A stretch of 64,000 nucleotides of DNA, taken from the NCBI RefSeq assembly GCF_003063375.1, contig NZ_NERY01000003.1, positions 62,001 through 126,000 on the forward strand, given 5' to 3'. A model generated the notes under the pieces. The model had not been told where the DNA came from. It searched no databases and saw only the letters and a list, made by a program, of their open reading frames with translations. Positions 12,468 to 30,066 of this stretch are shown piece by piece. This stretch comes from Limnohabitans sp. MMS-10A-178. Lineage in GTDB: Bacteria > Pseudomonadota > Gammaproteobacteria > Burkholderiales > Burkholderiaceae_C. The number at the start of each line of letters is the position of its first letter. Position 1 is the first letter of the stretch. A program made the position numbers and the translations under genes.

Positions 12468-12580
12468 TAATTGGGGTCAAATAAATGGGGTCAGATCAAC
12501 ATTAATTTACTCAGCGCATAGATCGCTCTGAATCACAAAAAATTAATGTTGATCTGACCCCATTTATTTGACCCCAATTA
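12468..12580. repeat. Palindromic repeat, copy A (41-bp perfect arms, 31-base loop)
   Basis: Arms at 12468-12508 and 12540-12580 are perfect inverted repeats. The inner arm core is GGGGTCAGATCAACATTAAT, and each arm carries a second GGGGTC/GACCCC unit 14 bases further out. The 31-base loop (12509-12539) is asymmetric, which gives the element an orientation; AGCG...CGCT inside it can form a small inner stem. The element ends 18 bases from the stop of the VIT/vWA gene, which runs toward it. It belongs to the family at 15588, 21913, 22448, 25275 and 30040. No transposase is nearby. Confidence 0.93.
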
Positions 12581-12598
12581 AATTCTCTCCGGCGCGAA

Positions 12599-15142
12599 TT
12601 AGCTGTTGATCACCAGATTGCTCTCTATCAGCGTTTGTGCTTTTTCATGCATCACTTCTGTGGCCAGCTTTAGCTGACTTCTTAGCAAGCGCTTGGCGTG
12701 TTTGTCTAGCAAATCCGATTCTTCAATGTCGCCAAACAACCATTCAAACAACAGCGCCCAACTGGTGGCACTGTCTTTGGTCACCTTGGTCAGGTCAATG
12801 ATGACGGCTGCATAGTTGCTGGGCATATTGAGTTTGAGGGTTTGCTGCAAAGCGATGCGGAATGAAGAGGCTTGAAGCGCGGCCGTGTTGAGGGCCATGG
12901 CAATGTCGACCTTTGTGGCTTCGGATGGCGATGGTTTTTTGGGCCGTTCCGCATTGTTAAGCACGCTTGTTTGTGGCTTGGTGCTGGGTGAGATCAAATC
13001 CTTGATCTTGCTAGACAACTGACTGAGCAAGGACGGATCGGATGAGTTTGCGTTTTCTGCGGCATCTGAAAAAGTGCTTGAGCTTTGCGCTTGTTGATCA
13101 CTGGCGTCAGCTTGCTTTCGCAAGAAAGCTGGAATTTCTATGTCGTCCATTCCCGCAGAAGCCATGCCGTCTACTTTGGATGCGGCTTGTGTTCGGTTGG
13201 TGCGCCATACGCTAGGGGTGTTGAGGCGGCTGTAGTCGCCGCCTAAGCTAGGTGAGGACAAGCTGTCGGAGATCTCAAATGATTCTGAATGACTACTCAT
13301 TCTCATGACCAACATGGCGGGTGCTGCTCTGGTCACAGAGCCGTACCCACCAAATCCAGCCGCTTGCATTTGCGCTACTTGCTGCAACTTGGGCAATCCT
13401 TCTGCCTTGTTTTCTTCAGCACGTTCGTGCAGCAAGAAAAGGTTGGTGTGTTGGGTAACCAGTTGGTATTTCATGGCCAATGACTTGGCCAACTTGGTAT
13501 CTGCTTTGCCTTCTGTCAGCTCTGCAATTTGAGCTGCCGCACACAGCCTGGCCACAATGCCTTCTGTGTCCCATGTAATGCTTAAGGGCTTGGCGCTGCT
13601 TACTTCTTTTTCTACTTCTTTTTCTATTTCTTTAAACAAAGTTTTGCAAATGAGAACGGGCGGCTTTTCTGTTTTGGCTGGCAGCCTAGCGAAAAGGTGT
13701 ACGGTTTCGCCATCAATCAATTGTGGGGGCAGGGTGCTGGCCCATTCGTGATTTTTGTTTTTCTCTTCGGTGGCATTCCACTTGATGGCAAAGCGCACTT
13801 CTTGTGCCGAGCGCATTCTTGTGATCATTCGGTCTACGGCGCTGCGCATGTCTTCGCGCGGAGTGACAAACTCGCATGAGCCGCCGGTGTCTTTGGCCAG
13901 TTCTCTGAGCAAGCTTTCGGCGGGCGCGCTGCCCACGCCTATGGTGTAGACACGGTGGCCACTGATGCGAGCTGAGGCCAAAATGTTTTCAATGTTCCAA
14001 ACCTCGCCATCGGTAATGAGTAACACGTCGGAGGAATCGGTTATTTCTGGGTTCTTGCGCGATTTTTCTTGGGTGTTCATGTTGAACACGTCGGTCATGG
14101 CAATGGCCAGTTCAGTACCACCCAAGTCGGCTTCTGTTTTGTCGATGGTTCTGAGCAAGCTTTGTATGCGCTCGCTGGTAGCCATGGTCATGTGCTTCGT
14201 GACGCGATCGATACGGCTACCAAATCGAGTGTAAGCAAAACAGTCGTCTTCATTGAGTTGCTTGAAGAGGTGCTTGAGAGCCACGCGCGCTTGTTCCATG
14301 CTGTCGCCAGCCATAGAGCCTGAGCAATCTAACAGCACTTTGAGTCTGAGCTTGCTGGGCTTGGCCTTGGGCAATTTGGGGCAGAAGCTGGTAATGATGG
14401 CTGTGGTGTTGCTGCCTTCTGAGTCGGGTCCGGCAATGCAAAATGATTCGCCTTCTAGGTCTTCAATGAGGAGTACAAAGTCGCGGTCTAGGTAGGCTTG
14501 TTTGCCAAGTTGTACGTTGACACCGTCAAAACTTTTGGTGGTTTTGATGGGGTGTGTAGGACTGCTAATGATGCCCTTGGCTGCCGTGCCTTGAATATCC
14601 AAGGTCATGAAGAAGCCGTATTCCACCAAGCCATTGCTTGCGGTAGTTTGGTGGGCTTGCAGTCCACCTTGTTGGTGTTGGTCGCCATAGCGTGGGGCGA
14701 TGGTGGTGGGAATACTGAGCCTAATGCGATCGGCTTCAAAGTTTAAAAGTTGTGCGTATTCGATTTCAATCACAGCTGTTTCGCCGGAAAGTAGGTTGCC
14801 CAAGTTGGCTGTGTACAGACCGCGCCCAGAGCGCTCTACCATGATGGGTGTATCGCCGTTGTCGATGGCTTTTTCGTATTGTTTAACGGCTTGTTTCTTT
14901 TCTATCACTGTGCCATTTAGGCGCTTGCCGTTGAGCTCAACTGCCAAGCTGAGCAGCGTGGCGCCCCATGCCAGCGGAAATGTGTAGACGGTTTCTAGGG
15001 CCTGTTTTGTTTCGTTGGTATAGGTTTGTCTGACCTTCATTCTCAAAAGCAGGCCATCGAGTTTGCCGTGCACGTGCACAGATTTCATGGCTACTTCTTC
15101 GCCGTCGCAGGTGAGGGTGCAGGATTCTTGTTCTTCGTACAT
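12599..15142 (-). CDS. VIT and von Willebrand factor A domain protein, cytosolic
   Basis: 847 residues. Residues 1-130 form a vault/inter-alpha-trypsin (VIT) domain (VYTFPLAWGATL; KKQAVKQYEKA; GNLLSGETAVIEIEY). Residues about 265-430 form a vWA domain with an intact metal-ion site: DCSGS at 272-276, the GGTEL threonine at 343 and ITDGE with Asp378. A low-complexity Ser/Ala/Gln-rich linker (about 610-730) leads to a C-terminal helical region. No signal peptide or membrane segment is seen, so it should act in the cytoplasm, unlike the animal inter-alpha-trypsin chains. Substrate or partner is unknown; vWA domains usually mediate Mg-dependent protein-protein contacts. It starts two bases after the MerR-type regulator and clearly shares its transcript. 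Confidence 0.88.
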   Translation of the reverse strand: MYEEQESCTLTCDGEEVAMKSVHVHGKLDGLLLRMKVRQTYTNETKQALETVYTFPLAWGATLLSLAVELNGKRLNGTVIEKKQAVKQYEKAIDNGDTPIMVERSGRGLYTANLGNLLSGETAVIEIEYAQLLNFEADRIRLSIPTTIAPRYGDQHQQGGLQAHQTTASNGLVEYGFFMTLDIQGTAAKGIISSPTHPIKTTKSFDGVNVQLGKQAYLDRDFVLLIEDLEGESFCIAGPDSEGSNTTAIITSFCPKLPKAKPSKLRLKVLLDCSGSMAGDSMEQARVALKHLFKQLNEDDCFAYTRFGSRIDRVTKHMTMATSERIQSLLRTIDKTEADLGGTELAIAMTDVFNMNTQEKSRKNPEITDSSDVLLITDGEVWNIENILASARISGHRVYTIGVGSAPAESLLRELAKDTGGSCEFVTPREDMRSAVDRMITRMRSAQEVRFAIKWNATEEKNKNHEWASTLPPQLIDGETVHLFARLPAKTEKPPVLICKTLFKEIEKEVEKEVSSAKPLSITWDTEGIVARLCAAAQIAELTEGKADTKLAKSLAMKYQLVTQHTNLFLLHERAEENKAEGLPKLQQVAQMQAAGFGGYGSVTRAAPAMLVMRMSSHSESFEISDSLSSPSLGGDYSRLNTPSVWRTNRTQAASKVDGMASAGMDDIEIPAFLRKQADASDQQAQSSSTFSDAAENANSSDPSLLSQLSSKIKDLISPSTKPQTSVLNNAERPKKPSPSEATKVDIAMALNTAALQASSFRIALQQTLKLNMPSNYAAVIIDLTKVTKDSATSWALLFEWLFGDIEESDLLDKHAKRLLRSQLKLATEVMHEKAQTLIESNLVINS

Positions 15143-15144
15143 GG

Positions 15145-15540
15145 TTAGGCCTTGATCTCTTGAATGGTTTTCATCACTGCTTTAACAAGGGCTCTGATTT
15201 GCTCGGGGCTCATGTCGGCTTCTTCGGGACTAATTTGCAACTCAATGCCAGGGGCCACATAGATGTGGCTCTTAACTTGAATATCGCCAGGCTTTCTCGG
15301 TTTGGTAGGTATTTGCAGCTCTTCCCCGTTTTGGATGTCTGAAATCCGTTCTAAGGAAATGCCAGCGTCTGAAAGTTGTTTGACTTTTAAAAGCTGCTCT
15401 AGGTGAGCGGTAAGGTAATGCGCTGCCCTGGTCTCGCCAATGGGCCTGTCTACCAGGCCCATTTGCATGTAATACCTCACCGTGCGCTTGGGCAAGTCGG
15501 TGAGGGTGCAGAGTTCATCAAGACTGAATGTTTTGGACAT
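15145..15540 (-). CDS. MerR-family transcriptional regulator (partner of the VIT/vWA gene)
   Basis: 131 residues. The N-terminal MerR winged helix reads FSLDELCTLTDLPKRTVRYYMQMGLV, continuing into the wing and LLKVKQLSDAGISLERI helix. The C-terminal part is short, acidic and Ile/Lys-rich, with no cysteines, so it is not a metal or redox sensor of the MerR/SoxR/CueR types; the effector is unknown. It is the first gene of a two-gene operon with the VIT/vWA protein, and a dyad overlapping its own promoter suggests autoregulation. The start ATG is placed directly before the helix-turn-helix, leaving no room for a later start. Confidence 0.85.
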   Translation of the reverse strand: MSKTFSLDELCTLTDLPKRTVRYYMQMGLVDRPIGETRAAHYLTAHLEQLLKVKQLSDAGISLERISDIQNGEELQIPTKPRKPGDIQVKSHIYVAPGIELQISPEEADMSPEQIRALVKAVMKTIQEIKA

Positions 15541-15552
15541 GCCTTTATATTA

Positions 15553-15581
15553 ACACTAAAACTGTACAAATATAGTGTCAA
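15553..15581 (-). promoter_or_regulatory. Promoter and overlapping dyad operator of the MerR/VIT-vWA operon
   Basis: On the minus strand a consensus -35 TTGACA (15581-15576) is followed after 17 bases by TAGTGT (15558-15553) as -10. The same bases form a 26-bp dyad: ACACTA at 15553-15558 and TAGTGT at 15573-15578 on the + strand, 14 bases apart and centred on GTAC. A bound dimer would cover the whole promoter. The predicted transcript starts only a few bases before the ATG (15540), implying a very short or leaderless mRNA. Inference from sequence alone. Confidence 0.6.
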
Positions 15582-15587
15582 TAATTT

Positions 15588-15700
15588 AATTGGGGTCAGA
15601 TCAACATTAATTTTTTGTGATTCACAGCGATCTATCCGCTAAGTAAATTAATGTTGATCTGACCCCAATTATTTGACCCCAATTATTTTGACCCCATTTA
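15588..15700. repeat. Palindromic repeat, copy B with extra tandem units on one side
   Basis: Perfect 26-bp arms at 15588-15613 and 15645-15670 around a 31-base loop that is the reverse complement of the copy A loop type, so this copy lies in the opposite orientation. On the right side the GACCCC unit is repeated at 15661, 15675 and 15690, spaced 14 and 15 bases; the left side has one unit only. The tail runs up to the stop codon of the aldehyde dehydrogenase (15704). Confidence 0.93.
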
Positions 15701-15703
15701 TTT

Positions 15704-17158
15704 TTAAAACGGATACTGGCGCGGTGCAGTTTGAATGGTGATCCAGCGCAGTTCGGTGAACTCGTTGATGCCGGCCTTGCCGCCAAAGCGGCCATAGCCG
15801 CTGCCTTTTACGCCACCGAATGGCATTTGGGCTTCGTCGTGCACTGTGGGGCCATTGACGTGGCAAATGCCTGAGTCAATTTTGCGGGCCACGTTGTAGG
15901 CGCGCGCTATGTCGCGGCCAAACACAGACGATGACAAACCATATTCATTGTCATTGGCGCAAGCAATGGCTTCCTCCACACCCTTCACACGCACAATGGC
16001 TTTCACGGGGGCGAAGCTTTCTTCGCGGTAAATGCGCATGGCGGGTGTCACGTTGTCTAGCAAAGTGGCAGGCATGAGGGTGTCGGTTGACTTGCCGCCG
16101 CACAGCAGTTTGGCGCCTTTAGAAATGGCGTCATCAATCAAATCGTTGCAATGCGACACGGTATTCATGCCAATCACGCTGCCCAGCACCACTGGATCGG
16201 GTTTGCGGGGGTAGCCCAAGGGCAGGTTTTTGGCTTTATTGGCAAAGCGCTTCACAAACTCATCGGCAATTTTTTCGTCCACCACAATGCGCTCTGTGCT
16301 CATGCAAATTTGGCCACTGTTGGCAAAGCTGCCAAAGGTGGCGGCGTTCACTGCGTCGTCAATGTCGGCGTCATCCAAAATCACCATGGGCGCTTTGCCG
16401 CCCAATTCCAAAATCACGGGCTTCAAATATTTGGCGCAAGTGAGGGCCAGCAGTTTGCCCACTTTGGTCGAGCCCGTAAAGTTAATGCGCCTCACCGCGG
16501 GGTGAGCCACTATGGCCTCCACCACCGATGCAGCATCGGCCGGTGCGTTGGTAATGTAGTTCACCACACCTGGCGGAAAGCCAGCTTCTTGAAACGCTTC
16601 AACAATCAGCTGATGCGTTTTAGGGCAATTTTCAGAGCCCTTCAAAATAAAAGTGTTGCCGCAGGCCAATGGCGTGGCAATGGCTCGCACGCCCAAAATA
16701 ATGGGCGCATTCCAAGGTGCAATGCCCAAAATAACACCAGAGGGTTGGAGAATGCCCATGGCCAAACTGCCAGGTACATCGGAGGGAATAACCTCGCCCG
16801 ATACCTGTGTAGTGAGAGATGCTGCTTCGCGAATCATGCCGGCCGCCAAGAACACATTGAAGCCAGCCCACATGCCTGTGGCACCTGTTTCTTCAGGCAC
16901 GGCTTTCACAAACTCGGGTGTTTTGGCTTCCAGCTTGTCGGCTGCTTTCAACAGCAATGCGCGTCTTTCGTTGGGGCCCACATCGCACCAAGTTTTGAAC
17001 GCTTCAGCGGCCGCTTCAACCGCCAAAATAGCATCGGCAGGGGAGGCCGCAGGTGCGCGCGTGGCCACGGTGCCATCGAGGGGGTTGCGACGCTCAAAGG
17101 TGGCGTTGTTTTCGGCACTCACTTTGAGGCCGTTGATGAGCATAGACATATCTGACAT
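15704..17158 (-). CDS. NAD(P)-dependent aldehyde dehydrogenase, vanillin/salicylaldehyde dehydrogenase-like
   Basis: 484 residues, standard ALDH length. PWNAPIILG (about 152) is the cofactor-binding segment, ELGGKAPMVI (about 252) carries the general-base Glu, and the SGQICMSTERI segment (near 285) carries the catalytic Cys; GVKGSGYGRFGG is the C-terminal signature. The motif variants resemble the vanillin/salicylaldehyde subgroup, which oxidises aromatic aldehydes to acids. It is the last gene of a transcript with the Liv-type transporter, 27 bases after livF, suggesting that it processes the imported compound or its product. The substrate is inferred only. Confidence 0.8.
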   Translation of the reverse strand: MSDMSMLINGLKVSAENNATFERRNPLDGTVATRAPAASPADAILAVEAAAEAFKTWCDVGPNERRALLLKAADKLEAKTPEFVKAVPEETGATGMWAGFNVFLAAGMIREAASLTTQVSGEVIPSDVPGSLAMGILQPSGVILGIAPWNAPIILGVRAIATPLACGNTFILKGSENCPKTHQLIVEAFQEAGFPPGVVNYITNAPADAASVVEAIVAHPAVRRINFTGSTKVGKLLALTCAKYLKPVILELGGKAPMVILDDADIDDAVNAATFGSFANSGQICMSTERIVVDEKIADEFVKRFANKAKNLPLGYPRKPDPVVLGSVIGMNTVSHCNDLIDDAISKGAKLLCGGKSTDTLMPATLLDNVTPAMRIYREESFAPVKAIVRVKGVEEAIACANDNEYGLSSSVFGRDIARAYNVARKIDSGICHVNGPTVHDEAQMPFGGVKGSGYGRFGGKAGINEFTELRWITIQTAPRQYPF

Positions 17159-17185
17159 GGAGAGTCTCCTAGAGATCTTTAAAAA

Positions 17186-17986
17186 TTAAGTTGAACGCAC
17201 AGTTTTTTCTAGCGCTTGCGAAGCAGTGCGTGTGTCGCTGGCGGCAGCGCCCAAATAGGCTTCTTGAATGACAGATGAACGGGCCAGCAACTTGGATGAG
17301 CCATGCGCCACCAGCGCACCGCGCTCAATCACATAGCCGCGGTCGGCCACTGCCAAGGCTTTGCGTACGTTTTGCTCCACCATGAGCACGGTGGTGCCTT
17401 GGTCTGCAATGCGTCTGGTCATGGCCAGCAATTCATCCACCATGCGGGGCGCTAAACCCAGCGAAGGTTCGTCAAGCATGAGGAGGCGAGGGGCCGACAT
17501 CATGGCGCGTGCAATGGCCACCATTTGTTGTTCGCCACCGCTCATGGTGCCGGCCAATTGGGTGGCGCGTTCACGCAGTTTGGGAAAGTCTTGCAAAACC
17601 ATTTCCATGCGCTCTTGGCGGACGTTGGGTTTTTGCAGCCAACCACCCAGCTCGAGGTTTTCAAGCACGGTCATTTGCGGGAACAGCTGGCGACCCTCAG
17701 GCACCAAGGCCATGCCGGCTTTCACTATTTCGTGTGGTTTTTCGGGCAAGTCTTCGCCATCTAGCAGCACCTCGCCGCGCATGGGAATTTGGCCTGACAA
17801 GGCGCGCAGCAAAGTGGTTTTGCCTGCACCGTTGGGCCCCAAAATAACAGTAAGGCCAGGTAGCACATCGAAGTTGAGTTGGCGAATGACTTCAAACGGT
17901 CCATAGCCAGCGCTCAATCCGCGCACGCGCAATTGTGCTTTGCCAGAGCCACCCAACACAAACCCTTGAGGGCGATACCACATCAT
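17186..17986 (-). CDS. livF: Branched-chain amino acid-type ABC transporter ATPase
   Basis: 266 residues. Walker A GPNGAGKTT, the signature MSGGEQQMVAIARAMM and Walker B LLMLDEPSLGLAP are intact. ALVPEGRQLFPQMTVLENLELG is typical of LivF. There is an N-terminal extension of about 20 residues before the ABC core. It pairs with LivG to power uptake through LivH/LivM. It overlaps livG by four bases (17983-17986). Confidence 0.88.
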   Translation of the reverse strand: MMWYRPQGFVLGGSGKAQLRVRGLSAGYGPFEVIRQLNFDVLPGLTVILGPNGAGKTTLLRALSGQIPMRGEVLLDGEDLPEKPHEIVKAGMALVPEGRQLFPQMTVLENLELGGWLQKPNVRQERMEMVLQDFPKLRERATQLAGTMSGGEQQMVAIARAMMSAPRLLMLDEPSLGLAPRMVDELLAMTRRIADQGTTVLMVEQNVRKALAVADRGYVIERGALVAHGSSKLLARSSVIQEAYLGAAASDTRTASQALEKTVRST

Positions 17987-18777
17987 GTGAGACCCTCCGA
18001 ATCGTTCACCATTTCATCGCCCAAATAAGCTTCAATCACTTCTTTGTTGCGCACCACGTCCGATGGTTTGCCATCGGCAATCATCTTGCCTTGGTTGAGC
18101 ACTATCACGCGCTCAACATGCTTGAGCAACACTTTTACAGCGTGCTCAATCCAAATAACAGAGAGGTCTAACTCATCGCGCAAACGGCGAATGAGGCGCG
18201 CCATTTCTTCCACTTCAATTTCAGTCAGGCCGGCAGCCACTTCGTCTAAAAGCAAAATGCGAGGGCGTGTAGACAAGGCCATGCCAATTTCTAAAACGCG
18301 TTGCTGTGAAGGTGTAATGGCGCCCGCAGGCAAGTTTGCCAAATCTGACAAACCAATGACCGACAAAATGCTGGCGGTGTCGCGCAGTGCCCAAGGCACA
18401 TTTTTTTCTTCGCCCCAAAACACATACTTGCGTGGCCTGCGTCCGGCAAACATCAAGCCAAACCGAATGTTCTCGCTCACGGGCAAGTCGCTGAACACCC
18501 GCGGTGTTTGAAAAGTTCGGGCCAGGCCGCGCTTTGCAAACTGATGCGGCAATGCGCCTGTGAGAGATCGACCATCTACTTTGAGTTGACCCGAAGTGAG
18601 AGGAGTGACGCCTGAGATAGCGTTGAAAAAAGTGGTTTTGCCAGCGCCGTTGGGCCCCATGATGCCCACCAGTTCGCCAGCCGCAATGTTCATGCTGACA
18701 GCATCAACAGCAGTTAAGCCGCCAAAGCGCACCGTCACATCTTTCGCTTGAAGCAAATAGTTTTCAGAGGCCGACAA
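17983..18777 (-). CDS. livG: Branched-chain amino acid-type ABC transporter ATPase
   Basis: 264 residues. Walker A GPNGAGKTTFFNAISG is intact. The ABC signature is variant: ITPSQQRVLEIG where LSGGQ would stand, and Walker B reads LLLDEVAAGL with Val after the catalytic Glu. Such variants occur in Liv-like transporters for non-amino-acid substrates, so I do not read this as inactivation. The start is TTG at 18777, overlapping the livM end by 14 bases; no ATG is available nearby. Confidence 0.85.
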   Translation of the reverse strand: MSASENYLLQAKDVTVRFGGLTAVDAVSMNIAAGELVGIMGPNGAGKTTFFNAISGVTPLTSGQLKVDGRSLTGALPHQFAKRGLARTFQTPRVFSDLPVSENIRFGLMFAGRRPRKYVFWGEEKNVPWALRDTASILSVIGLSDLANLPAGAITPSQQRVLEIGMALSTRPRILLLDEVAAGLTEIEVEEMARLIRRLRDELDLSVIWIEHAVKVLLKHVERVIVLNQGKMIADGKPSDVVRNKEVIEAYLGDEMVNDSEGLT

Positions 18778-19786
18778 TTCGTCTCTCCTTGGCGCGTTGC
18801 TTGTCGCGTGCTTTGTCGCCGCTCCATTCGTAGCGTGTGTCCTTGTACCACTGACGCATGTCTTGGTACCAGTCTTTGAAGGTTTGCCAACGCATGGAGG
18901 CCAAGCCGCCCGGCAAATACAACACGCTCAAAATGAGCAAGAGACCCAAAGTCATCATGTAAATTTGCGGTGCTTGCAAACGCAGTGTTTCGGCCAAGAT
19001 ACTGAACACAATGGCTGCAATGAGAGGGCCCCACAAAGTCATGGCGCCGCCAATGAGTGCAATGAGCACTGTTTGAAAACCAATGAACGGATTGAACGCA
19101 GTGTGCGGGTCGATGTAGGTCCAGCGCACAGCCATGGCAGCGCCCACGCCACCCGCTACGGCGGCTGTAAATGCAAAGCCTGCCACCTTCACCCAGCGCG
19201 TGTTCACGCCCAAGGTTTGCGCGCGTTGCTCATCGCCGCCAATGCCCAACAAGGCCAAGCCAAAACGTGTGCGGCGCAAGCCAATAGAAAGTGCAACCGT
19301 AATAACTGCCAGCAGCAACACCGTATGATAAATGGTGCTCATCTCGGGCACTGTGGATAGCACACGGCCCACGGTGCCATGCACAGATTTTTCGTAGTAG
19401 CTAATGGCGTGTCTGATCAGTTCGGCCATGCCAAATGTGAGCACTGCAAAGTAGGTGCCGCGCAAATGCAAAACGGCCAATCCCATCACAACGGCTACGG
19501 CTGCAGCAATGCCAGAGCCCAATGCAATGGCACTGGCCCACGGCATGGTGTCTAAGTTCATGGCAGTGGTGTAAGCACCCAAGCCAAAAAATGCCGATGT
19601 GGCCAAAGACAAGTAGCGCGAGCTGCCGCAAAAAAAGCCCCAGCTGGTAGACAGCGCCACGTACATCAAGCACGTAAGCGCCATGGAGACCACAAACTCA
19701 TTGCCATAACTGGGCAAGGCCAGAGCCCAGCCGGTTAGGCCAAAGAGCACCAAAACATCTCGCCAAAGGTTTGCGTTGGAATTCAT
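18764..19786 (-). CDS. livM: Branched-chain amino acid-type ABC transporter permease
   Basis: 340 residues, strongly hydrophobic with about eight to ten membrane segments. The cytoplasmic loop LRRTRFGLALLGIGGDEQRAQTLGVNT is the LivM EAA-like coupling motif. The C-terminal tail is charged (about 30 residues of K/R/D/E). It forms the permease heterodimer with LivH. Overlaps livH by four bases and livG by 14. Confidence 0.88.
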   Translation of the reverse strand: MNSNANLWRDVLVLFGLTGWALALPSYGNEFVVSMALTCLMYVALSTSWGFFCGSSRYLSLATSAFFGLGAYTTAMNLDTMPWASAIALGSGIAAAVAVVMGLAVLHLRGTYFAVLTFGMAELIRHAISYYEKSVHGTVGRVLSTVPEMSTIYHTVLLLAVITVALSIGLRRTRFGLALLGIGGDEQRAQTLGVNTRWVKVAGFAFTAAVAGGVGAAMAVRWTYIDPHTAFNPFIGFQTVLIALIGGAMTLWGPLIAAIVFSILAETLRLQAPQIYMMTLGLLLILSVLYLPGGLASMRWQTFKDWYQDMRQWYKDTRYEWSGDKARDKQRAKERRIVGL

Positions 19787-21852: not shown

Positions 21853-21912
21853 GGGGAGTCTCCTGAAGGTATTTTTAGCCCTGTATGCTACCAACTTTGA
21901 AAAACCCTTGCC

Positions 21913-21951
21913 AATAATTGGGGTCAGATCATTGATCTGACCCCAATTATT
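21913..21951. repeat. Palindromic repeat, copy C (collapsed: 19-bp arms, one-base loop)
   Basis: Arms 21913-21931 and 21933-21951 are a perfect inverted repeat containing GGGGTCAGATCA. The AACATTAATTT inner arm and the 31-base loop of the full element are missing. The right arm supplies the stop codon of the thermonuclease gene (TTA at 21947-21949 on the + strand). Confidence 0.9.
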
Positions 21952-22423: not shown

Positions 22424-22447
22424 TGCATTGACGTTGTTGTAAATGAG

Positions 22448-22590
22448 AATAATTGGGGTCAAATAATTGGGGTCAGATCAACATTAATTTTTTGTGATTC
22501 AAAGCGATCTGTGCGCCAAGTAAATTAATGTTGATCTGACCCCAATTATTTGACCCCAATTATTTTGACCCCATTTATTTGTCCCCAATT
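22448..22590. repeat. Palindromic repeat, copy D (43-bp perfect arms plus extra units)
   Basis: Arms 22448-22490 and 22522-22564 are perfect inverted repeats, the longest in this family here. The 31-base loop (22491-22521) is oriented as in copy B. The right side continues with GACCCC units at 22538, 22552 and 22567 and a GTCCCC variant at 22581, at 14-, 15- and 14-base steps. It ends five bases from the stop of the lipoprotein gene. Confidence 0.93.
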
Positions 22591-22595
22591 ATGAT

Positions 22596-22943
22596 TCAAC
22601 TGGGGATGTATGTCACAGGGACGCAAGTGATACTGAGATTGACCATGGCGCCAGTGCCATTGCCATTGAGAACTGTGCAAATTTGGCTTGTGGGCTGAGT
22701 GAGAACTGTGACTGAATAGCTTTCTTGATCTGAAACGGGCGTGGCGAAACTAAAGTTGCCATTGACCGACAAAAGGGTTGTGTTGGCGTCGTTGTTTTGC
22801 AAAACAAGTTCATTGCCAATGCTGAGGCCCATGACTGTGCCAGAAATGGGGCCTGCCTGACGGGGCTCCGAATTTGAGTTGTCGCCACAAGCTACCAAGA
22901 ATGTGAGCGATGCGATTGCAAGCGAAATTTTGATGGCGTTCAT
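22596..22943 (-). CDS. Small secreted lipoprotein of unknown function
   Basis: 115 residues from ATG 22943, which places a lipobox (FLVAC) at the end of a clear hydrophobic signal sequence; the +2 residue is Gly, favouring outer-membrane sorting. An upstream in-frame ATG (22997) would put 18 polar residues before the signal. The mature part has one module of the form GTVMGL...LVLQNN...LSVNGNFSF...Y-VTV...QP-SQICTV-NG-GTG, a pattern I have seen repeated in larger Burkholderiales surface proteins. Two cysteines remain besides the lipid-bearing one and may form a disulfide. No function can be assigned. Its stop is adjacent to repeat copy D. Confidence 0.72.
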   Translation of the reverse strand: MNAIKISLAIASLTFLVACGDNSNSEPRQAGPISGTVMGLSIGNELVLQNNDANTTLLSVNGNFSFATPVSDQESYSVTVLTQPTSQICTVLNGNGTGAMVNLSITCVPVTYIPS

Positions 22944-23093
22944 GTGTTCTTTCAAGGTGACTGACAAGTTGTTGATGTGAGATTCGATGCTATCCACGCA
23001 TGCTCAACAGGTGCTTGCTTTTGCTTTCAGACCACCCGATTTCAGAAACTACTAGAATGCTTGCCATTCCTCTAAGGGCCTTGAGCTTGGACA

Positions 23094-25268
23094 ATGAACC
23101 ATTCTTCTACTAACAATTCCACCAATCCTTGGAGTTTTCTCCCTTTTGCGCTCACCATCTTCACCAGCGCATTTTTGTTGTTTCAAGTTCAACCGCTCAT
23201 CAGCAAGCAAATCCTGCCTTGGTTTGGTGGCAGTCCTGCGGTTTGGACAACGGCCATGCTGTTTTTCCAATCCTTGTTGTGTTTGGGATATTTCTATGCG
23301 CACGCCTTGGCCAGTTTGTCGTCTCGCAAAACCCAGGCGCGCATTCACGTTGCGGTGTTGATCTTGGCGGCGCTGTTGGCCTCTAGGGTGCTGCCTGGGG
23401 TCGATATGCGGCCCGATTCTCCCGACTTACCGGTGCTTCAGGTCTTGCAAATTTTGGGGCTCAGTGTGGGTTTGCCTTACTTTTGTTTGGCAACCACAGG
23501 CCCCTTGGTGCAGCATTGGTTTACCAACACGGCGCACGCGCAATCTGTTTTCCGTTTGTACGCTTTGTCCAACGTGGGCTCGTTTTTGGCGCTGCTTTCA
23601 TTTCCCTATGTGCTCGAGCCTTGGCTAGAACAGCAGCAAATGGGCCAGTTGTGGACCATCGGCTTTTGGGTCTTTGCCTTGCTGTGTTTGCCAGTGGCTT
23701 TGGGCGCTTGGCAAAACAAACCAGAAACTGCCAATGCGGCCGTTCAACTTGGTCCCAAAACCAAGCTGCCCTTGGCGCAGCGTTTGTCATGGATTGCACT
23801 GCCTGCGTTGGCCTCTTTGGTGTTCATTGCAGCCACCGATCAAATTAGCCATGACGTTGCGCCCGAGCCCCGGCTTTGGATTTCAACGCTCGGTTTGTAC
23901 TTGGTAACCTTCATTCTCACCTTCGATCACCCGCGCTGGTATCGCCCCAGGCTGTTTGGCGCGCTCACTTTGGTGTTGCTCTTGGTCACTGCGGGTATGA
24001 GTGACATTCCGCGTTGGCTTGGCTTTGAGTGGGACTACGGTGTTAATGATGTGCGTTGGTCGCACTATGCTTTGTTGTTTGTGGTGTGCATGCTGTGCCA
24101 TGGCGAGTTGTATCGCCGCCGACCAACCGACACGCGCTGGCTCACAGAGTTTTATCTTTGCATGTCGATAGGCGGTGCATTTGGCGGCTTGTTTGTCACG
24201 CTGGTGGCCACCCAATATTTTGACGATTACCACGAGTGGTTAATGGCCTTGGTGCTGGTTGCTTTGTTGGCCAGCCATGTTTTGTTTCGCTCTTCTTTGC
24301 CACTTGCCGGTTTGGCTGGGCGTGCCATGCGCCTTGGCGGCGTGGCTACAGCCACAGGCATGGTGGTTTTGTTGGTGGCCATGCAGAACCCGTGGTCTTG
24401 GCGAGATATTGACAGCGAAGATCGCACTGAAATTTTGTTAGACCAAGAACGCAATTTCTATGGCACGGTGTCTGTCAAGGAGCGGCTTTTCAAGGCTGAG
24501 CCAGAATTGAACGACAGGGTGTTCTTCAGTGGCAACGTGACCCACGGCCAGCAGTTTTTGTCCGACAAACTTCGCCATGTGCCCACCACCTATTACGGCC
24601 GCGACAGCGGTATTGGCGACACGCTTTTGTGGGCCATGCAGCAAAAACCCAATTTGTCTGTTGCTCTCATTGGACTGGGTGCCGGCACCTTGGCCAACTA
24701 TGCGCGTGAGGCCGATGCCTATGATTTTTATGAAATCAATCCAGCAGCCGTGCGGTTTGCGCAAGAGTGGTTTGACAATTTGAAATCGTGCAAAGCCAAA
24801 GAACAAAATATCTTGTTGGGTGATGCACGTCTTCGCATGGCGCAGTTGCCCAAGGACAAGCAGTATGACGTCATTGTGCTGGATGCCTTCACGGGTGGCT
24901 CGGTGCCCATTCATTTGCTCACGCGCGAGGCATTTCAAATTTACGCCAATCACCTCAAGCCCGATGGCTACATTGCCATCAACATCACCAATGCGTATTT
25001 GAATTTGTATCCTATTGTGAAGGCGCAGTCGGAGGTGTTGGGCATGACGTACCGCCATAAATTTCAAATGGCTGATGACGTGCGAAACATTCGCCGCAAT
25101 TTGCACTTCGTGATGACAAACGACCAGGCTTACCTTAAAGCCCACCCCTCAATCAGCCGTGATGTTTTAGACGAAGCAGGTCGCAAGATTGGCACCGACC
25201 CCCAAGACCAAACCGGTTTGCGCCTCTGGACCGACCAGTTCAGCAGCATTGCGCCTATCGTGAAATAA
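23094..25268 (+). CDS. Membrane-fused spermidine synthase-like protein
   Basis: 724 residues. The first 430 or so are hydrophobic with about ten predicted membrane segments, starting FALTIFTSAFLLFQVQPLISKQILPWFGG, a signature of fused MFS/spermidine-synthase proteins. The C-terminal 230 residues are a SpeE-like Rossmann domain: VALIGLGAGTLANYA (SAM-type glycine loop), YDFYEINP (acidic ribose ligand), LGDARLRM and VLDAFTGGSVPIHLLT. The aminopropyltransferase aspartate of true SpeE is in the VLDAF region, but activity is not assured. The role of these fusions is not established. Its 3' end is followed directly by repeat copy E. Confidence 0.8.
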   Translation: MNHSSTNNSTNPWSFLPFALTIFTSAFLLFQVQPLISKQILPWFGGSPAVWTTAMLFFQSLLCLGYFYAHALASLSSRKTQARIHVAVLILAALLASRVLPGVDMRPDSPDLPVLQVLQILGLSVGLPYFCLATTGPLVQHWFTNTAHAQSVFRLYALSNVGSFLALLSFPYVLEPWLEQQQMGQLWTIGFWVFALLCLPVALGAWQNKPETANAAVQLGPKTKLPLAQRLSWIALPALASLVFIAATDQISHDVAPEPRLWISTLGLYLVTFILTFDHPRWYRPRLFGALTLVLLLVTAGMSDIPRWLGFEWDYGVNDVRWSHYALLFVVCMLCHGELYRRRPTDTRWLTEFYLCMSIGGAFGGLFVTLVATQYFDDYHEWLMALVLVALLASHVLFRSSLPLAGLAGRAMRLGGVATATGMVVLLVAMQNPWSWRDIDSEDRTEILLDQERNFYGTVSVKERLFKAEPELNDRVFFSGNVTHGQQFLSDKLRHVPTTYYGRDSGIGDTLLWAMQQKPNLSVALIGLGAGTLANYAREADAYDFYEINPAAVRFAQEWFDNLKSCKAKEQNILLGDARLRMAQLPKDKQYDVIVLDAFTGGSVPIHLLTREAFQIYANHLKPDGYIAINITNAYLNLYPIVKAQSEVLGMTYRHKFQMADDVRNIRRNLHFVMTNDQAYLKAHPSISRDVLDEAGRKIGTDPQDQTGLRLWTDQFSSIAPIVK

Positions 25269-25274
25269 ATAATT

Positions 25275-25385
25275 GGGGTCGATTAATTGGGGTCAAATAA
25301 ATGGGGTCAGATCAACATTAATTTACTAAGCGCATAGATCGCTGTGAATCACAAAAAATTAATGTTGATCTGACCCCATTTATTT
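25275..25385. repeat. Palindromic repeat, copy E with extra units on the left
   Basis: Perfect 30-bp arms at 25295-25324 and 25356-25385 flank a 31-base loop in the copy A orientation. GGGGTC units occur at 25275, 25289 and 25303 on the left, 14 bases apart; the right has a single GACCCC. It begins just after the stop of the spermidine-synthase-like gene, and its right edge abuts truncated coding sequence. Confidence 0.93.
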
Positions 25386-25770
25386 CCGAGCAGGAAAGCA
25401 ACCAGCTCCTCCGGCTCACCCGCAATGAATTGATCAGCGAGACGAGGCTTCGCATTTTCCAAGTCCTTTTGCACCAAGCTTTGTTTGAGGCAGGCGCAGA
25501 AGACGTGCAGCTGCTAGAGCAAGTGCGCGAGCGAGTGCGAGTGAGGGTGGCTAGCGGCGAAGCTGCACGCTACGAGATCATCAAAGCCGATGCTGAAATC
25601 ATCACAGCACGTGAACGCTTGCAAACCGCTCAACTGATGGTGGAGCAAAACAAAATTCAGCTCAACCAATTGGCTGCAGGGCAGCTGCCGGCCAAATTGG
25701 CGATGGGCTGGTTTGGGTGGTTAACATTGAGAGCATGCACCGCATTCGAGATCAGCAAGTCATTCAATGA
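25385..25770 (+). pseudogene. CzcC/TolC-family outer-membrane efflux protein remnant
   Basis: The frame from 25385 to about 25700 encodes an internal part of a CzcC-like outer-membrane channel: an alpha-helical stretch with RVRVRVASGEAARYEIIKAD and AQLMVEQNKIQLNQLAAGQLP, typical of the region preceding the second coiled-coil repeat. There is no N-terminal signal or barrel, because the sequence begins exactly at the right edge of repeat copy E. After about 25700 the homology ends; another frame (DGLVWVVNIESMHRI) runs to a TGA at 25768-25770, suggesting a second junction or frameshift. A TTG start at 25430 makes a 117-codon ORF, but I regard the region as a decayed fragment. Confidence 0.7.
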
Positions 25771-25772
25771 GG

Positions 25773-26369
25773 TTATTCACTGAATTGGGTCACAGCCTCT
25801 AAACGTTTCAAGGGATCGAGCTCGCCCAACAGTTGCAGTTTGATGGCCGGGCTGAGGGGCATGGCTTCGGCGTAGCGGTTGGCCACCCAGCCGCACTGAT
25901 CCAATTGGTAGGGCGGGAAGATGGGCAGTCTGTCGATCACGCCTTGTTGCTGCGCTTTTGCAATCACTTTGCCAAGCCGGTCGGCAAAGCTTTGCAGGGC
26001 TGAAGGTACTTCCACTTCTTCATCTTGCGCCAAGTAGCTCACACTGCCTTGCCACACGCCAAAGGGGCCTGCTTGCACATCGTGCAATTCAAACCTCAAA
26101 CCACCTTGGCACACGATGCGAAAAAAATTGGGCTGAACTTGCTCCATCTCTCTGATGTGCGCCAAGCAACCCAATGAGTGCAGCGCTGGCACTTCGCCAG
26201 GCACTTGCACTTCACTGCCTTGTTTTATCCAAGCGATGCCAAAAGGCAATTGCTGTTGATGGCACCGCTTGATCAGGTCGAGGTAGCGCACTTCAAAAAT
26301 TTGAAGCGGCAACATCCCATCGGGAAATACGCCCTGAGAAAGGGGGAAGAGGGGGATGGTATGTTGCAC
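25773..26369 (-). CDS. Stand-alone Lon substrate-binding (LAN) domain protein
   Basis: 198 residues, consisting only of the PUA-like N-terminal domain of Lon: IPLFPLSQGVFPDGMLPLQIFEVRY at the start, then FGIAWIKQGSEV and LGCLAHIREMEQ. No ATPase or protease domain follows. Such stand-alone proteins are common in proteobacteria; the role is not established, perhaps substrate handling. It overlaps nothing and starts two bases after the downstream end of the TTT receptor gene, with which it probably shares a transcript. Confidence 0.82.
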   Translation of the reverse strand: MQHTIPLFPLSQGVFPDGMLPLQIFEVRYLDLIKRCHQQQLPFGIAWIKQGSEVQVPGEVPALHSLGCLAHIREMEQVQPNFFRIVCQGGLRFELHDVQAGPFGVWQGSVSYLAQDEEVEVPSALQSFADRLGKVIAKAQQQGVIDRLPIFPPYQLDQCGWVANRYAEAMPLSPAIKLQLLGELDPLKRLEAVTQFSE

Positions 26370-26371
26370 CG

Positions 26372-27334
26372 TTAATTCATTTTGATGTTGGCTTGCTTGA
26401 TGAGCCTGCCAAAGCGCTCAAATTCTTGGCGGTTGAATCGGCTGAACTCTTCGGGGCTGATGTTGCCGGGCTCACCGCCTAGGCCTTTGAGCCTGGCTTG
26501 CACATCGGGCAGTTTGATGATGCGTGCCAGCTCGGTTTGCAACCTGGCCACCACATCGGGGGGTGTGCCAGCGGTTACAAAAACGCCATACCAGGTGCTC
26601 ATTTCAAATCCTGAAACGCCGGCTTCGGCCAGGGTAGGCACGTTGGGCAACTCGGCTGAACGCTGCGGTGTGGTAACCGCCAATGGCTTGAACTTGCCAG
26701 CTTTAATTTGACCCATGGCAGAGGAGGTGGTGTCAAACATGATTTGTACATTGCCAGCAATGATGTCTAGGTGAGCTTGGGCGCTGCCTTTGTAGGGCAC
26801 GTGCACGCTTTTGACGCCTGCGGCAATGTCAAAGCCTTCACCTGCAATGTGCTGCGTGCTGCCCACACCAGAAGACGCGTATTTGAAATCTTCTGGCTTG
26901 GCTTTCATGAGCGCAACCAACTCCTTGACGTTGTTGGCGGGCACGTTGCTACCCACCACCAGCACATTGGGCACAGTGACCACCAAGCCAATGGGCGTTA
27001 AGTCTTTGATGGGATCGAAAGCCAATTTGATCAGGTGCGGTGCAATGGCTTGACCCGTGTTGGTGGCCACCAGCAGGGTGTGGCCATCGGGGGCGGCTTT
27101 GGCGGTCAGGTCGGCTGCAATGGTGTTGGATGCGCCTGGCTTGTTTTCAACAATGAAGTTGCCCTTGAGTGACTCGGTCATTTTTTCGGCCAACATGCGC
27201 GCAATGATGTCGGTGCCGCCGCCAGCCCCCGCGCCCACCATGAGTTTGACGGGTTTGGTGGGATAGGCAGTTTGGGCTTGGGCACTGACAGCCAACAAAA
27301 TGGCAGACGTTAAGACGGCTAGAACTTTTTTCAT
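26372..27334 (-). CDS. Bug/TctC-family tripartite tricarboxylate transporter receptor
   Basis: 320 residues. A signal peptide (MKKVLAVLTSAILLAVSAQAQ) precedes the Bug fold: YPTKPVKLMVGAGAGGGTDIIARMLAEKM, KPGASNTIAA and VPYKGSAQAHLDIIAGNVQIMFD. These periplasmic receptors bind small carboxylates, and many genomes contain far more of them than TctAB permeases; no permease is adjacent here. The ATG has a good GGAG site. Located 34 bases downstream of the PdxA-family gene on the same strand, so they probably act on the same compound. Confidence 0.87.
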   Translation of the reverse strand: MKKVLAVLTSAILLAVSAQAQTAYPTKPVKLMVGAGAGGGTDIIARMLAEKMTESLKGNFIVENKPGASNTIAADLTAKAAPDGHTLLVATNTGQAIAPHLIKLAFDPIKDLTPIGLVVTVPNVLVVGSNVPANNVKELVALMKAKPEDFKYASSGVGSTQHIAGEGFDIAAGVKSVHVPYKGSAQAHLDIIAGNVQIMFDTTSSAMGQIKAGKFKPLAVTTPQRSAELPNVPTLAEAGVSGFEMSTWYGVFVTAGTPPDVVARLQTELARIIKLPDVQARLKGLGGEPGNISPEEFSRFNRQEFERFGRLIKQANIKMN

Positions 27335-27368
27335 GGGGTCTCCTCCTTAGTATCAATGTTGAGTATGT

Positions 27369-28316
27369 TTAAGCGATTTGTTGTTGGTGGTGTTGTCCCA
27401 TTCGGCAGGCCAAATCGAAGGCGTTTAGCATGGCTTGCGGGTTGGCCACGTTTTGGCCTGCAATGTCGTAGGCGGTGCCATGTGCGGGCGTGGTGATTGG
27501 CATGGGCAAGCCGCCATGCACCGTGACACCTTTTTCAAAGCCCATGAGCTTCATGGCAATTTGGCCTTGGTCGTGGTACATGGTGACCACGCCGTCGTAG
27601 CCGCCTTCTTTGCGAATGGCGCGCACAAAGGCTGTGTCGGCAGGGAAGGGGCCGTCGGCGGGGATGCCTGCCTTTTGCGCCATCTGTACACCTGGCGCAA
27701 TGATTTTGATTTCTTCATCGCCATAGTTGCCGTTGTCGCCGTTGTGGGGGTTCAGGCCACAAACAGCCAGACGAGGCTGAGACTTGCCAGAGGCCTTCAG
27801 GGCCTTGGCAATCATTTCAATGGAGTCAAACACTTTTTGGCTGCTGAGCAACTGGCTCACTTCTTTCAGTGCCACATGGGACGTGACGCGGGAAGTCCAG
27901 AGGTCTTGCAGCACATTGAGTTCGCCGCACACGCCCTTGTAATTTAAAAATTCTGCAAACCAGCGCAGCTCGTCTTCTTGGTGCATGCCGCCCAAGCGCA
28001 AAGCGCTTTTGTTGAGCGGTGCAAAACAAAAGGCGTGGGCTTTGCCATCGCGAACCAGAGAAACGCCTTCGGCCAATGCGGCAATCATGTAGGCGCCGTT
28101 GTTGGCGTCATAGGTGGCTCTGGGAAAGGCAGGGGCATTGAAGCCAGACCATTGGTGCCAGCTTACGTTGGGAGCAGCTTGCACACTGTCTTTTTGGCCA
28201 ATCAAAATGATCTTGGCAGCTTGTTGGGCAGTGCTGTGATTTAGGAGCTTTTGAACCAGCTCGGGGCCGATGCCGGCAGGGTCGCCTGTAAAAAGCGCGA
28301 TGGTGGGTTGGGTCAT
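27369..28316 (-). CDS. PdxA-family 4-phospho-hydroxy-acid dehydrogenase (PdxA2-like)
   Basis: 315 residues. Motifs of the metal- and NAD-dependent family are intact: TGDPAGIGPEL, TSHVALKEV, GLNPHNGDNGNYGDEE, GPFPADTAF, MYHDQGQIAMK and PITTPAHGTAYDIAG. The biosynthetic PdxA makes the pyridoxal phosphate precursor; paralogues (PdxA2) act in threonate/erythronate or related catabolism. Lack of the usual surA/ksgA neighbours and linkage to a TTT receptor favour the catabolic paralogue, but this is inference from context. Divergent from the DMT transporter; a perfect palindrome lies in between. Confidence 0.78.
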   Translation of the reverse strand: MTQPTIALFTGDPAGIGPELVQKLLNHSTAQQAAKIILIGQKDSVQAAPNVSWHQWSGFNAPAFPRATYDANNGAYMIAALAEGVSLVRDGKAHAFCFAPLNKSALRLGGMHQEDELRWFAEFLNYKGVCGELNVLQDLWTSRVTSHVALKEVSQLLSSQKVFDSIEMIAKALKASGKSQPRLAVCGLNPHNGDNGNYGDEEIKIIAPGVQMAQKAGIPADGPFPADTAFVRAIRKEGGYDGVVTMYHDQGQIAMKLMGFEKGVTVHGGLPMPITTPAHGTAYDIAGQNVANPQAMLNAFDLACRMGQHHQQQIA

Positions 28317-28352
28317 TTGAGTCTTTGAAATGGGTACGTCATCCGTAACGAC

Positions 28353-28372
28353 AGATTCAGTATAGTGAATCT
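28353..28372. promoter_or_regulatory. Palindromic operator-like site between pdxA-like gene and DMT exporter
   Basis: AGATTCA and TGAATCT form a perfect 7-bp inverted repeat with a six-base spacer (GTATAG). It lies 36 bases upstream of the pdxA-like ATG and 92 upstream of the divergent transporter. Size and symmetry fit a dimeric repressor or activator site; no regulator gene is adjacent. Confidence 0.5.
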
Positions 28373-28463
28373 CGTAGAATCAATCACATTGGTTCTTACC
28401 CTCAGTGACACACAAAACCCAATGAAAACTCCCTCTTTTGGGTTGTGAAATAAGTTTCTCTTC

Positions 28464-29339
28464 ATGTCACAACTTTTAAGCGACACCGCACGCAACCGTC
28501 AGATAGGCATTGCCCTTGTGACGGCAATGACCCTGATGTTTGCGGTGCTAGATACCAGTGCCAAGTGGCTGGTCCAAACCGTCCCAGTATTGCAGGTGGT
28601 TTGGTTGCGTTTTTTGTTTCACACCATTTTGACCACTGCTATTTTCATGCCCTCGATGGGGCCTGAATTGTTCAAAATTAAAAATCCACGATTGCAATTG
28701 CTTCGCGGTGTCATGCTCGCGCTCATGACGGGGCTTAACTTTTTTGCCTTGCAATTTCTACAGTTAGCAGAAACAGCTGCAGTTCAGTTCTCCGTGCCAA
28801 TCCTCATTGCACTCATTTCTGCATGGCTATTGGGTGAAAAACTCGATGCCAAACGCTGGGTTGCCATTTGTGTTGGTTTTGCGGGTGTGCTCATCATCAT
28901 TCGACCTGGGAGTCAGAGTTTTCATCCCGCAATTTTTCTCAGCATTGGCAATGCGTTTTTGTATGCTGCTTTTAATTTAATGACGCGCAAATTGGCTAGC
29001 AGCGATCATCCTATTTCGACGCAGTTGGCGTCAGCAGCGGTCCCTACTGTTTTGCTAATGCCATTTGCCTTGTGGCAATGGCAAGCCCCCGACGGTTGGG
29101 TGGTTTGGGCCGTCATTGTTTTAACAGGATTGACCGGTGGCCTGGGGCATGCAGCTTCGGCCCTTGCACATCGATATGCCACCGCTGCGGTGTTGGGTCC
29201 TTTTTTGTACCAGCAAATTATTTACATGAGCGTAGGGGGTTGGCTCATATTTGGTCAAATTCCCGACTTTGCCGTGGTGGTAGGTGCCAGCGTGGTGGTT
29301 CTCAGCGGCTTGTACTTGCTTTGGAGCGAGCTGACTTAA
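28464..29339 (+). CDS. DMT-superfamily (EamA) transporter
   Basis: 291 residues, about ten membrane segments in two EamA repeats: the first begins ALVTAMTLMFAVLDTSAKW and the second FLSIGNAFLYAAFNLMTRKL. LLRGVMLALMTGLNFFALQFL and WLLGEKLDAKRWVAICVGFAGVLIIIRPG are the family markers. It is probably an exporter of a small metabolite in the inner membrane; the substrate is unknown. The 3' end overlaps the SOUL gene tail-to-tail by four bases. Confidence 0.88.
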   Translation: MSQLLSDTARNRQIGIALVTAMTLMFAVLDTSAKWLVQTVPVLQVVWLRFLFHTILTTAIFMPSMGPELFKIKNPRLQLLRGVMLALMTGLNFFALQFLQLAETAAVQFSVPILIALISAWLLGEKLDAKRWVAICVGFAGVLIIIRPGSQSFHPAIFLSIGNAFLYAAFNLMTRKLASSDHPISTQLASAAVPTVLLMPFALWQWQAPDGWVVWAVIVLTGLTGGLGHAASALAHRYATAAVLGPFLYQQIIYMSVGGWLIFGQIPDFAVVVGASVVVLSGLYLLWSELT

Positions 29340-30016
29340 TTGAATGATTTGACCTCTTCAATTTCAATCATGATTTCGTTACGGCGAAACATGGGCAAGG
29401 TCCAAGGCGGGTCGTAGCGTGAAAGCTGAGGGCTGCTCAATGCCTTCAAATTCTTTTCGCGAACCCATGCTACAAGCTCATCTGTTTTGGCTTGCACTTG
29501 CGTCTTTGTATTAAATCCGGTGTAGTTGTAAAGCGCAAAATACTTGCCCGGAATTTCTCTCAATTTGACATCGGCATTTTTGGGTTGTGGAATGTTGGCC
29601 ATGGTGTACTTAGAGGGCATGACAAAATGGATTCGCCATTTGTTGCTGCCCGCCATGTTGCTGTCTGTAGTGTTGTTGGCAGCGCCCATGGTGACGGGTG
29701 CCGTCATTGCAATCTTTTCTGACTTTTCTAATTGTGGCTCTTGCGTCACGGGCGCAGTCATGGCTATTTTGGCGGAGCCACCTGTTTGAGCAGACTGGTT
29801 GTTGCCAAAAATAAAGTCGGCAATTTTTCGAAAGCCTCGGGTAGAGGCCTCATCCATGTCGCCGTCCACCACGGTTTCGGCCACCAGCATGGGGGCGTAC
29901 TGGCGAACTTCAAATGAGCCCGACTTGAAGATTGACGTAAATCGGGGTTCTTCAATGGCCATGGCGGATTGACTCCAGAAAATGAAGAACAAAGCTAATA
30001 GAAAACGTGTTTTCAT
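29336..30016 (-). CDS. Exported SOUL-family heme-binding protein
   Basis: 226 residues. A signal peptide (FLLALFFIFWSQSAMA) is followed by the SOUL fold: EEPRFTSIFKSGSFEVRQYAPMLVAET, GFRKIADFIFGNN, two copies of KIAMTAPVT separated by about 20 residues, and FVMPSKYTMANIPQP. The family binds heme or hydrophobic ligands; the bacterial role is unknown. The duplicated KIAMTAPVT strand is normal for the family. Upstream lies half a palindromic repeat (copy F). Confidence 0.85.
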   Translation of the reverse strand: MKTRFLLALFFIFWSQSAMAIEEPRFTSIFKSGSFEVRQYAPMLVAETVVDGDMDEASTRGFRKIADFIFGNNQSAQTGGSAKIAMTAPVTQEPQLEKSEKIAMTAPVTMGAANNTTDSNMAGSNKWRIHFVMPSKYTMANIPQPKNADVKLREIPGKYFALYNYTGFNTKTQVQAKTDELVAWVREKNLKALSSPQLSRYDPPWTLPMFRRNEIMIEIEEVKSFN

Positions 30017-30039
30017 AAGTAAACCTTAACAGCGCTGGA

Positions 30040-30066
30040 AAATTAATGTTGATCTGACCCCAATTA
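30040..30066. repeat. Palindromic repeat, copy F (single right arm only)
   Basis: A 27-base segment matching one arm (AATTAATGTTGATCTGACCC and flanks) without its partner or loop: a solo half-element. It lies 28 bases from the stop of the aminoacylase gene and 23 bases upstream of the SOUL start. Confidence 0.85.

Follow-up and report, generated by a model that had tools for sequence, protein, structure and literature searches.

In a 64,000-nucleotide (nt) stretch of Limnohabitans sp. MMS-10A-178 (contig NZ_NERY01000003.1, positions 62,001 to 126,000; the window hereafter), six palindromic elements, S1–S6, recur beside gene ends, raising the question of what they are and what has copied them. 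Here, we show that the repeat sequence differs between clades of a Y1/HUH transposase and follows the transposase, and that the repeats are scattered, being present or absent at an orthologous junction depending on the relative, while the transposase gene is fixed beside gltB. As the hairpins share their ends with this gene, the transposase has most likely copied them as non-autonomous elements. They would probably be kin to miniature inverted-repeat transposable elements (MITEs) or to REPINs (hairpin-forming pairs of repetitive extragenic palindromic (REP) sequences), within a TIRYT family, that is, a Y1/HUH tyrosine transposase with flanking terminal inverted repeats (TIRs) carrying GGGGWSAS (PMC3733652).

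Ends shared by the hairpins and a transposase gene

Four of the six window elements are full palindromes, one is a collapsed copy (S3) and one a solo arm (S6), just as a preliminary description of this DNA had recognized. A full copy consists of two inverted terminal repeats of about 29 nt, WWYAAWT-GGGGTCAGATCAACATTAATTT, around a short interior, with outer arms in which a unit of GGGGTCA plus 7 or 8 nt is repeated and, in some copies, extra one-sided units. The 20-nt inner arm GGGGTCAGATCAACATTAAT has nine exact matches in the window (12487+, 12542−, 15592+, 15647−, 22469+, 22524−, 25303+, 25358− and 30042−) and none in 100 shuffles. Perfect arms of 43, 41, 30 and 27 nt (starting at 22448, 12468, 25295 and 15587, respectively) each enclose exactly 31 nt, bearing out the long perfect arms and constant spacing first reported. 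Two earlier claims hold in part: the inner arm, said to be common to all six elements, is present as the exact 20-mer in five, S3 being a remnant that lacks it even at three mismatches and carries only GGGGTCAGATCA and its complement; and the four loops, described as conserved, are related but not identical, those at 15592 and 22469 being inverted relative to the others. Folded as DNA, five of the six elements give z-scores of −8.4 to −15.7. Rfam searches of four loci returned 30 matches, all below the gathering score and all to eukaryotic microRNA models, which we set aside as artefacts of long hairpins.

The elements had been called confined to 12.4–30.1 kb, which is true within the window but not beyond it. 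Few or no copies genome-wide had been named beforehand as the contrary outcome; the genome (G000; 2.89 Mb in five contigs, C1–C5) holds 54 inner-arm matches at up to two mismatches, many as inverted pairs. These form 30 clusters, two of which are the ends of the transposase gene, and dense stretches lie at C1:28–36 kb, C1:1.68–1.78 Mb, C3:74–92 kb and C4:30–57 kb. That gene, the single Y1/HUH (Y1_Tnp) gene found in G000 (C1:696.0–696.7 kb), encodes a 230-amino-acid (aa) product that matches PF01797 (43.7 bits; cut-off, 23) and retains H60-F-H62 (the HUH motif) and the catalytic Y120. On either side of the gene stand TTAATTGGGGTCAGATCAACATTAATTT and its exact complement, which form a 29-nt perfect inverted repeat containing GGGGTCAG, and these flanking TIRs are the same arms as those of the dispersed hairpins; a gene of the RAYT (REP-associated tyrosine transposase) type between such arms, as the preliminary description had envisaged, therefore exists. 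As in MITEs, the TIRs of the hairpins are shared with a transposase-bearing element.

A profile built from 34 relatives of the protein matches four sequences in the PDB, namely 4er8 (TnpArep, E 0.0002) and three named transposase. The AlphaFold2 model (mean predicted local distance difference test score of 90.3) comprises a core and a C-terminal part that is entirely helical between residues 142 and 213, and no helix-turn-helix Pfam match to the C terminus was returned for any of the 34 members. Downstream of the gene, CTGACCCC is preceded at a distance of 48 or 49 bp by a second motif, which mostly reads CTGTCCCC (for example, positions 2288–2341 of locus L033); this motif occurs at most loci with repeats and also at some without the upstream repeat, and is possibly a second, putative binding site.

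The arms are GGGGTCAG TIRs; those read directly contain no canonical REP foot GT[AG]G, their feet being WWYAAWTGGGGTCAG. Thus, the membership of the REP/RAYT class suggested earlier stands as far as the link to a Y1/HUH transposase goes, but TIRYT and its dispersed TIRtron repeats, an already described relation of that class, fit better than canonical REP/RAYT. TIRtrons are moderately abundant dispersed TIR families, many as dimers or clusters (PMC3733652), and the corresponding features (a Y1 transposase with HUH and tyrosine, GGGGWSAS-type TIRs at the gene, and TIRs dispersed as dimers or clusters) are all found here. Differences are the two swappable interiors, one with a second hairpin family, the arms matched to transposase clade, the fixed gltB locus and the lineages with substituted catalytic residues; the available text of PMC3733652 mentions none of these four features and contains neither of the words Comamon and Acidovorax.

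By its NHFH, WE and Y..LNP motifs, as tabulated, by its length (230 aa against a median of 238) and by an extra C-terminal domain, the protein resembles TnpA-Y1 subclass 2.1 (Bertels group 1; PMC6006769). This is the second largest Y1 subclass of that survey, present in 14.9% of strains; GGGG-type inverted repeats are associated with 20 of 26 TIRYT examples, and that paper left the TIR link to further analyses. In that study, searches beside subclass 2.1 genes detected no REP-like sequences, whereas the repeats that flank the present gene recur elsewhere as hairpins; gltB and glutamate synthase are not mentioned there. REPIN/RAYT systems share with the present one inverted conserved ends, a hairpin-folding spacer, the same repeat beside a RAYT-like gene, compensatory changes (reported for REPINs in PMC3116915), singlets as remnants and a single-copy, vertically inherited transposase (reported for RAYTs in PMC8049555). 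They differ in having GTAG REPs rather than GGGGTCAG ends, in lacking two unrelated kinds of interior and in number, with 69–235 REPINs per E. coli genome (PMC8049555) against 30 clusters here. A literature search, which took in few subscription papers, returned two papers that use the name TIRYT but nothing on the arm sequence, Limnohabitans palindromes or the gltB link, and the text it covered, some of it partial, held no clade-by-clade matching of repeat and enzyme, no swappable interiors and no gltB-linked genes with substituted catalytic residues. The element class is already known; ends that follow the transposase, and a gene that persists after catalytic loss, are what this lineage adds.

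Transposase clades and the gltB locus

The clade I arm, that of the window, occurs at up to one mismatch in 25 of 90 genomes of the genus. A transposase of at least 88% identity is found in 21 of these 25 and in none of the other 65 (Fisher 7e-17, a value that ignores shared ancestry), most of which encode an enzyme about 60% identical (clade II). Eight clade II flanks (L124–L131) read GGGGTCAGATCCC, mostly followed by AATTAA. This arm, derived from those flanks before it was searched for in the 90 genomes, is present in 79; the 11 without it are 10 genomes with the clade I arm and G083, which has neither. Where the clade I arm is absent (65 genomes), 64 genomes have 1–16 clade II matches each, and 53 have at least three, so one or more in addition to the pair flanking the gene. 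Clade I genomes, among the matches listed, hit the clade II arm at one mismatch only (GATCACAATTAA). In four clade II copies (L216, L218, L222 and L223, among 12 loci shown) the outer ends of two repeats stand together, the opposite polarity to clade I. Yet other inner arms follow GGGGTCAGA at two Polaromonas-like loci and one Simplicispira locus.

After the transposase gene stands gltB (glutamate synthase large subunit), at 51 of 54 and 28 of 30 loci in two overlapping sets; the misses are four contig ends and a distant outgroup of 34% identity, and in L077 gltB lies 1.6 kb away. We compared 61 transposase copies drawn from 84 loci (L033 represents L102; the contig-cut L064 and L065, the outgroup L101 and the genus copies L103–L122, which by identity mostly resemble L048–L066, were excluded). 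Thirty have repeats and an intact HUH motif and tyrosine, 15 are intact without repeats, 16 are broken without repeats, and none of the 61 combines terminal repeats with broken catalytic residues (Fisher 2e-6, uncorrected for ancestry, the broken copies perhaps representing four or five events). The substitutions are tyrosine to serine in Comamonas and, elsewhere, glutamine for a histidine or alanine, leucine or phenylalanine for the tyrosine. Loci L077 and L086–L100 carry gltB-linked Y1 transposase genes with HUH or the tyrosine substituted that are conserved all the same.

The transposase gene is under purifying selection: the median ratio of nonsynonymous to synonymous substitution rates (dN/dS) is 0.06 in clade I, 0.06–0.09 over three intact groups and 0.11–0.13 in three broken groups, the last two with three pairs each. 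Such low values suggest that the broken genes are still constrained. Going further, the gltB-linked TIRYT may be a true host gene, held next to gltB by purifying selection, in Comamonadaceae and in some other Burkholderiales, for a conserved job other than transposition (hairpin DNA binding or another cell service), and catalytically dead and devoid of repeats in several lineages (Comamonas, Acidovorax-like and others); populations of hairpins, with interiors exchanged like cassettes and symmetry self-templated, would then build up only in lineages with an intact enzyme and repeats, such as this one. We advance this tentatively, as conceivable rather than probable. The lineage supplies matched pairs of enzyme clade and repeat, relatives at the same locus whose catalytic residues are substituted, and orthologous sites that are variously full, swapped, collapsed or empty, which together make the role of a domesticated Y1 transposase directly testable.

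Interiors, orthologous sites and arm symmetry

Interiors and symmetry were surveyed in 114 distinct elements from the loci retrieved, rather than from whole genomes. Between the 20-mers, 24 have interiors of 34–36 nt (type A), 70 of 95–101 nt (type B), and the remainder are collapsed, nested or longer. The type B core GATTTSTGGTACYCCASNATGAGGAAGC, at up to three mismatches, is present in 64 of the 70, in one orientation in 38 and in the other in 26, and stems resembling type B enclose a nested type A at C1:35.3 kb and C1:1259 kb. At orthologous sites one interior may be swapped for another. At site a of locus L044 (a locus missing a flank was not read at that site), G000 has type A; of 13 readable relatives, seven (G039, G044, G010, G048, G038, G007 and G088) have type B hairpins, G026 and G052 have a type B core hairpin without GGGGTCA arms, and G075, G054, G046 and G087 have neither. 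At the S1 site, read in eight genomes, G000 has type A, G007 and G038 have type B, G048 has a collapsed copy, G044 and G026 retain remnants of arms, and G010 and G075 have no element. In G086 the S3 site is occupied by a full element whose interior is of the other type. At the S6 site of G025 a full two-arm element touches the amidohydrolase gene, and a 226-aa gene is absent.

Within 92 of the 114 elements the two 20-mer arms are identical (re-paired mean, 62; maximum, 74), although the arms vary between elements, and 20 arm changes are present on both sides (shuffled mean, 3.3; maximum, 10). Outer symmetry is 91–100% over 7 nt, falls near background at nt 10 and rises slightly at nt 13–15. 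In type B hairpins, the count covering 26 of the 64 interiors with the core, all 99 nt long and of one loop polarity, 24 of 56 pairs are changed on both sides and 99.2% of cells are paired. We infer from both-sided stem changes a templated correction at the level of DNA. In the mechanism that we envisage, single-stranded hairpins would be substrates of the transposase in trans. They would be cut and rejoined close to their GGGGTCA ends by the HUH/tyrosine chemistry of IS200/IS605 and TnpA-REP, and copies would be reinserted between genes. One arm may template the other, through a hairpin intermediate or template switching at a fork, and so keep long palindromes symmetrical; such self-templating would also explain the inverted loops, nested outer units, collapsed copies and solo arms.

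Several observations weigh against copying by this transposase. Four of the 25 arm-bearing genomes lack an enzyme of 88% identity: no transposase match was found in G053, G079 and G089, whose assemblies are 88, 81 and 58% complete; G068 combines a single arm with an enzyme of 62% identity. Eleven of the 64 clade II genomes have one or two arm matches, perhaps the gene flanks alone, and in G001 the matches are those flanking the gene alone. The protein scores 78.4 against the NCBIfam REP transposase model, for which the cut-off is 80, and 30 arm changes are one-sided. Same-genome nearest neighbours are in weak excess for type A (9.8 of 21; shuffled, 5.3; 6 of 500 shuffles as high) and in none for 99-nt type B (3.5 of 28; shuffled, 3.0; 193 of 500 as high), suggesting that the copies are mostly old; we accordingly do not take recent amplification within a genome to be the chief sign of activity. 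Neither excision nor a circle nor a new insertion was observed, and the empty sites are too diverged for an insertion point to be located. Finally, at site d of L044, G000 has a solo arm where, between the same genes, all 10 readable relatives have 1.6–2.4 kb of other sequence, a pattern that would suit recombination.

Recombination is at the heart of the first alternative, in which the palindromes are recombination points of gene cassettes, and blocks between copies are exchanged at the repeats, hence their position at block borders. The L044 site d pattern fits this, as do the S1–S5 blocks, which are relocated or reordered in relatives: block B lies on G026:C66, away from the tRNA site, and precedes block A in G025, G033 and G088, and the tRNA side adjoins block E in G044 and G026. 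A related double-hairpin repeat also bounds cassettes downstream of serS. Yet the genes on either side of L044 sites a, b and c remain together in the readable relatives while the elements vary, several block ends are plain gene ends without arms (w15703 in G026, G060 and G088), and homologous recombination between dispersed repeats would give the same picture. We consider it unlikely that the palindromes are recombination points of cassettes.

More doubtful still is that the hairpins are RNA elements, either bidirectional terminators or 3′-end stabilizers, selected for RNA folding, two of which the transposase chanced to capture. Their folds are very stable, and 13 of the 30 clusters lie at convergent-gene junctions, compared with 8 of 56 window junctions (Fisher p 0.004). 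Fourteen clusters lie between tandem genes and one (L046) inside a called open reading frame (ORF). Contact with a gene 3′ end on one side or both shows no enrichment (27 of 30 clusters against 49 of 56 window junctions, p 1.0); all of these counts use a simple, crude ORF caller on both sides and controls from the window alone. The claim that copies lie close to stop codons is correct in the window by position, but non-random placement applies to convergent junctions and not to 3′ ends at large. A T-rich tract follows S3, which a terminator scan flagged, but over the region the scan flagged no more than shuffles did (28 against 28.1), and, being restricted to loops of 3–8 nt, it could not have flagged the full elements. 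Against folding of RNA stand the arm sequence, which follows the transposase clade, and the type B stems, in which 157 of 1,456 cells are changed on both sides, only 7 are one-sided changes of the G-U type and 12 are unpaired, mostly in the terminal arms; so few G-U intermediates would be unlike stepwise RNA compensation. A MITE family of another transposase, such as a DDE enzyme (no search aimed at one between the same arms was made), is scarcely credible: the elements resemble MITEs in their long inverted repeats and short non-coding interiors, but the arms flank the Y1/HUH gene and follow its clade.

The window elements and neighbouring gene blocks

S1 (12465–12584) is a full copy with 41-nt perfect arms, two GGGGTCA units per side and a 31-nt type A loop, 51 nt after a tRNA-Val gene (12338–12414) and about 15 nt from the stop of a VIT/vWA gene (12599–15142, −). 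S2 (15586–15704), also full, has 27-nt arms, two extra right-hand units and a type A loop in the opposite orientation, and touches the stop of an aldehyde dehydrogenase gene (15704–17158, −). The collapsed S3 (21913–21953) is an 18-pair hairpin with a 3-nt loop that overlaps the stop of an SNase-like gene (21947–22462, −). S4 (22448–22595), full, with 43-nt arms, more right-hand units (the last degenerate) and a type A loop in the opposite orientation, adjoins the end of ORF 22596–22997 (−). S5 (25264–25385), full, with 30-nt arms, left-hand units and a type A loop, overlaps the stop of a 724-aa gene (23094–25268, +). The solo arm S6 (30039–30067, −) and the stop of the amidohydrolase gene (30095–31780, −) are 28 nt apart.

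The gene blocks between S1 and S6 (12585–30038) are reordered or relocated in relatives, and the region beside tRNA-Val is variable; the order of the sequence is mostly retained past about 31.8 kb and on the side of the tRNA gene. The type B core GATTTCTGGTACYCCAGNATGAGGAAS is a second hairpin family, occurring with and without GGGGTCA arms, in 26 of the 90 genus genomes and in 9 of 299 family genomes drawn evenly (3 of 141 genera); genus g81 has up to 15 copies, some paired about 200 bp apart.

Downstream of serS and a tRNA-Ser gene, opposed hairpin pairs of about 250 bp with the type B core loop set gene blocks apart from one another (L198, G000 C1:826000–836000, positions 2836–8783). Integron attC sites were rejected as an explanation of these double hairpins, as their ends by eye are GTT...AAC, reversed relative to the attC motif. 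The blocks comprise a metal-dependent hydrolase region, a TacA-like antitoxin with a GNAT gene, and a photolyase-like gene. In BLAST comparisons, a single hairpin pair and none of the blocks is present there in G010 and G075, G031 is without the TacA/GNAT block, and block order or place is altered in G007, G039 and G044.

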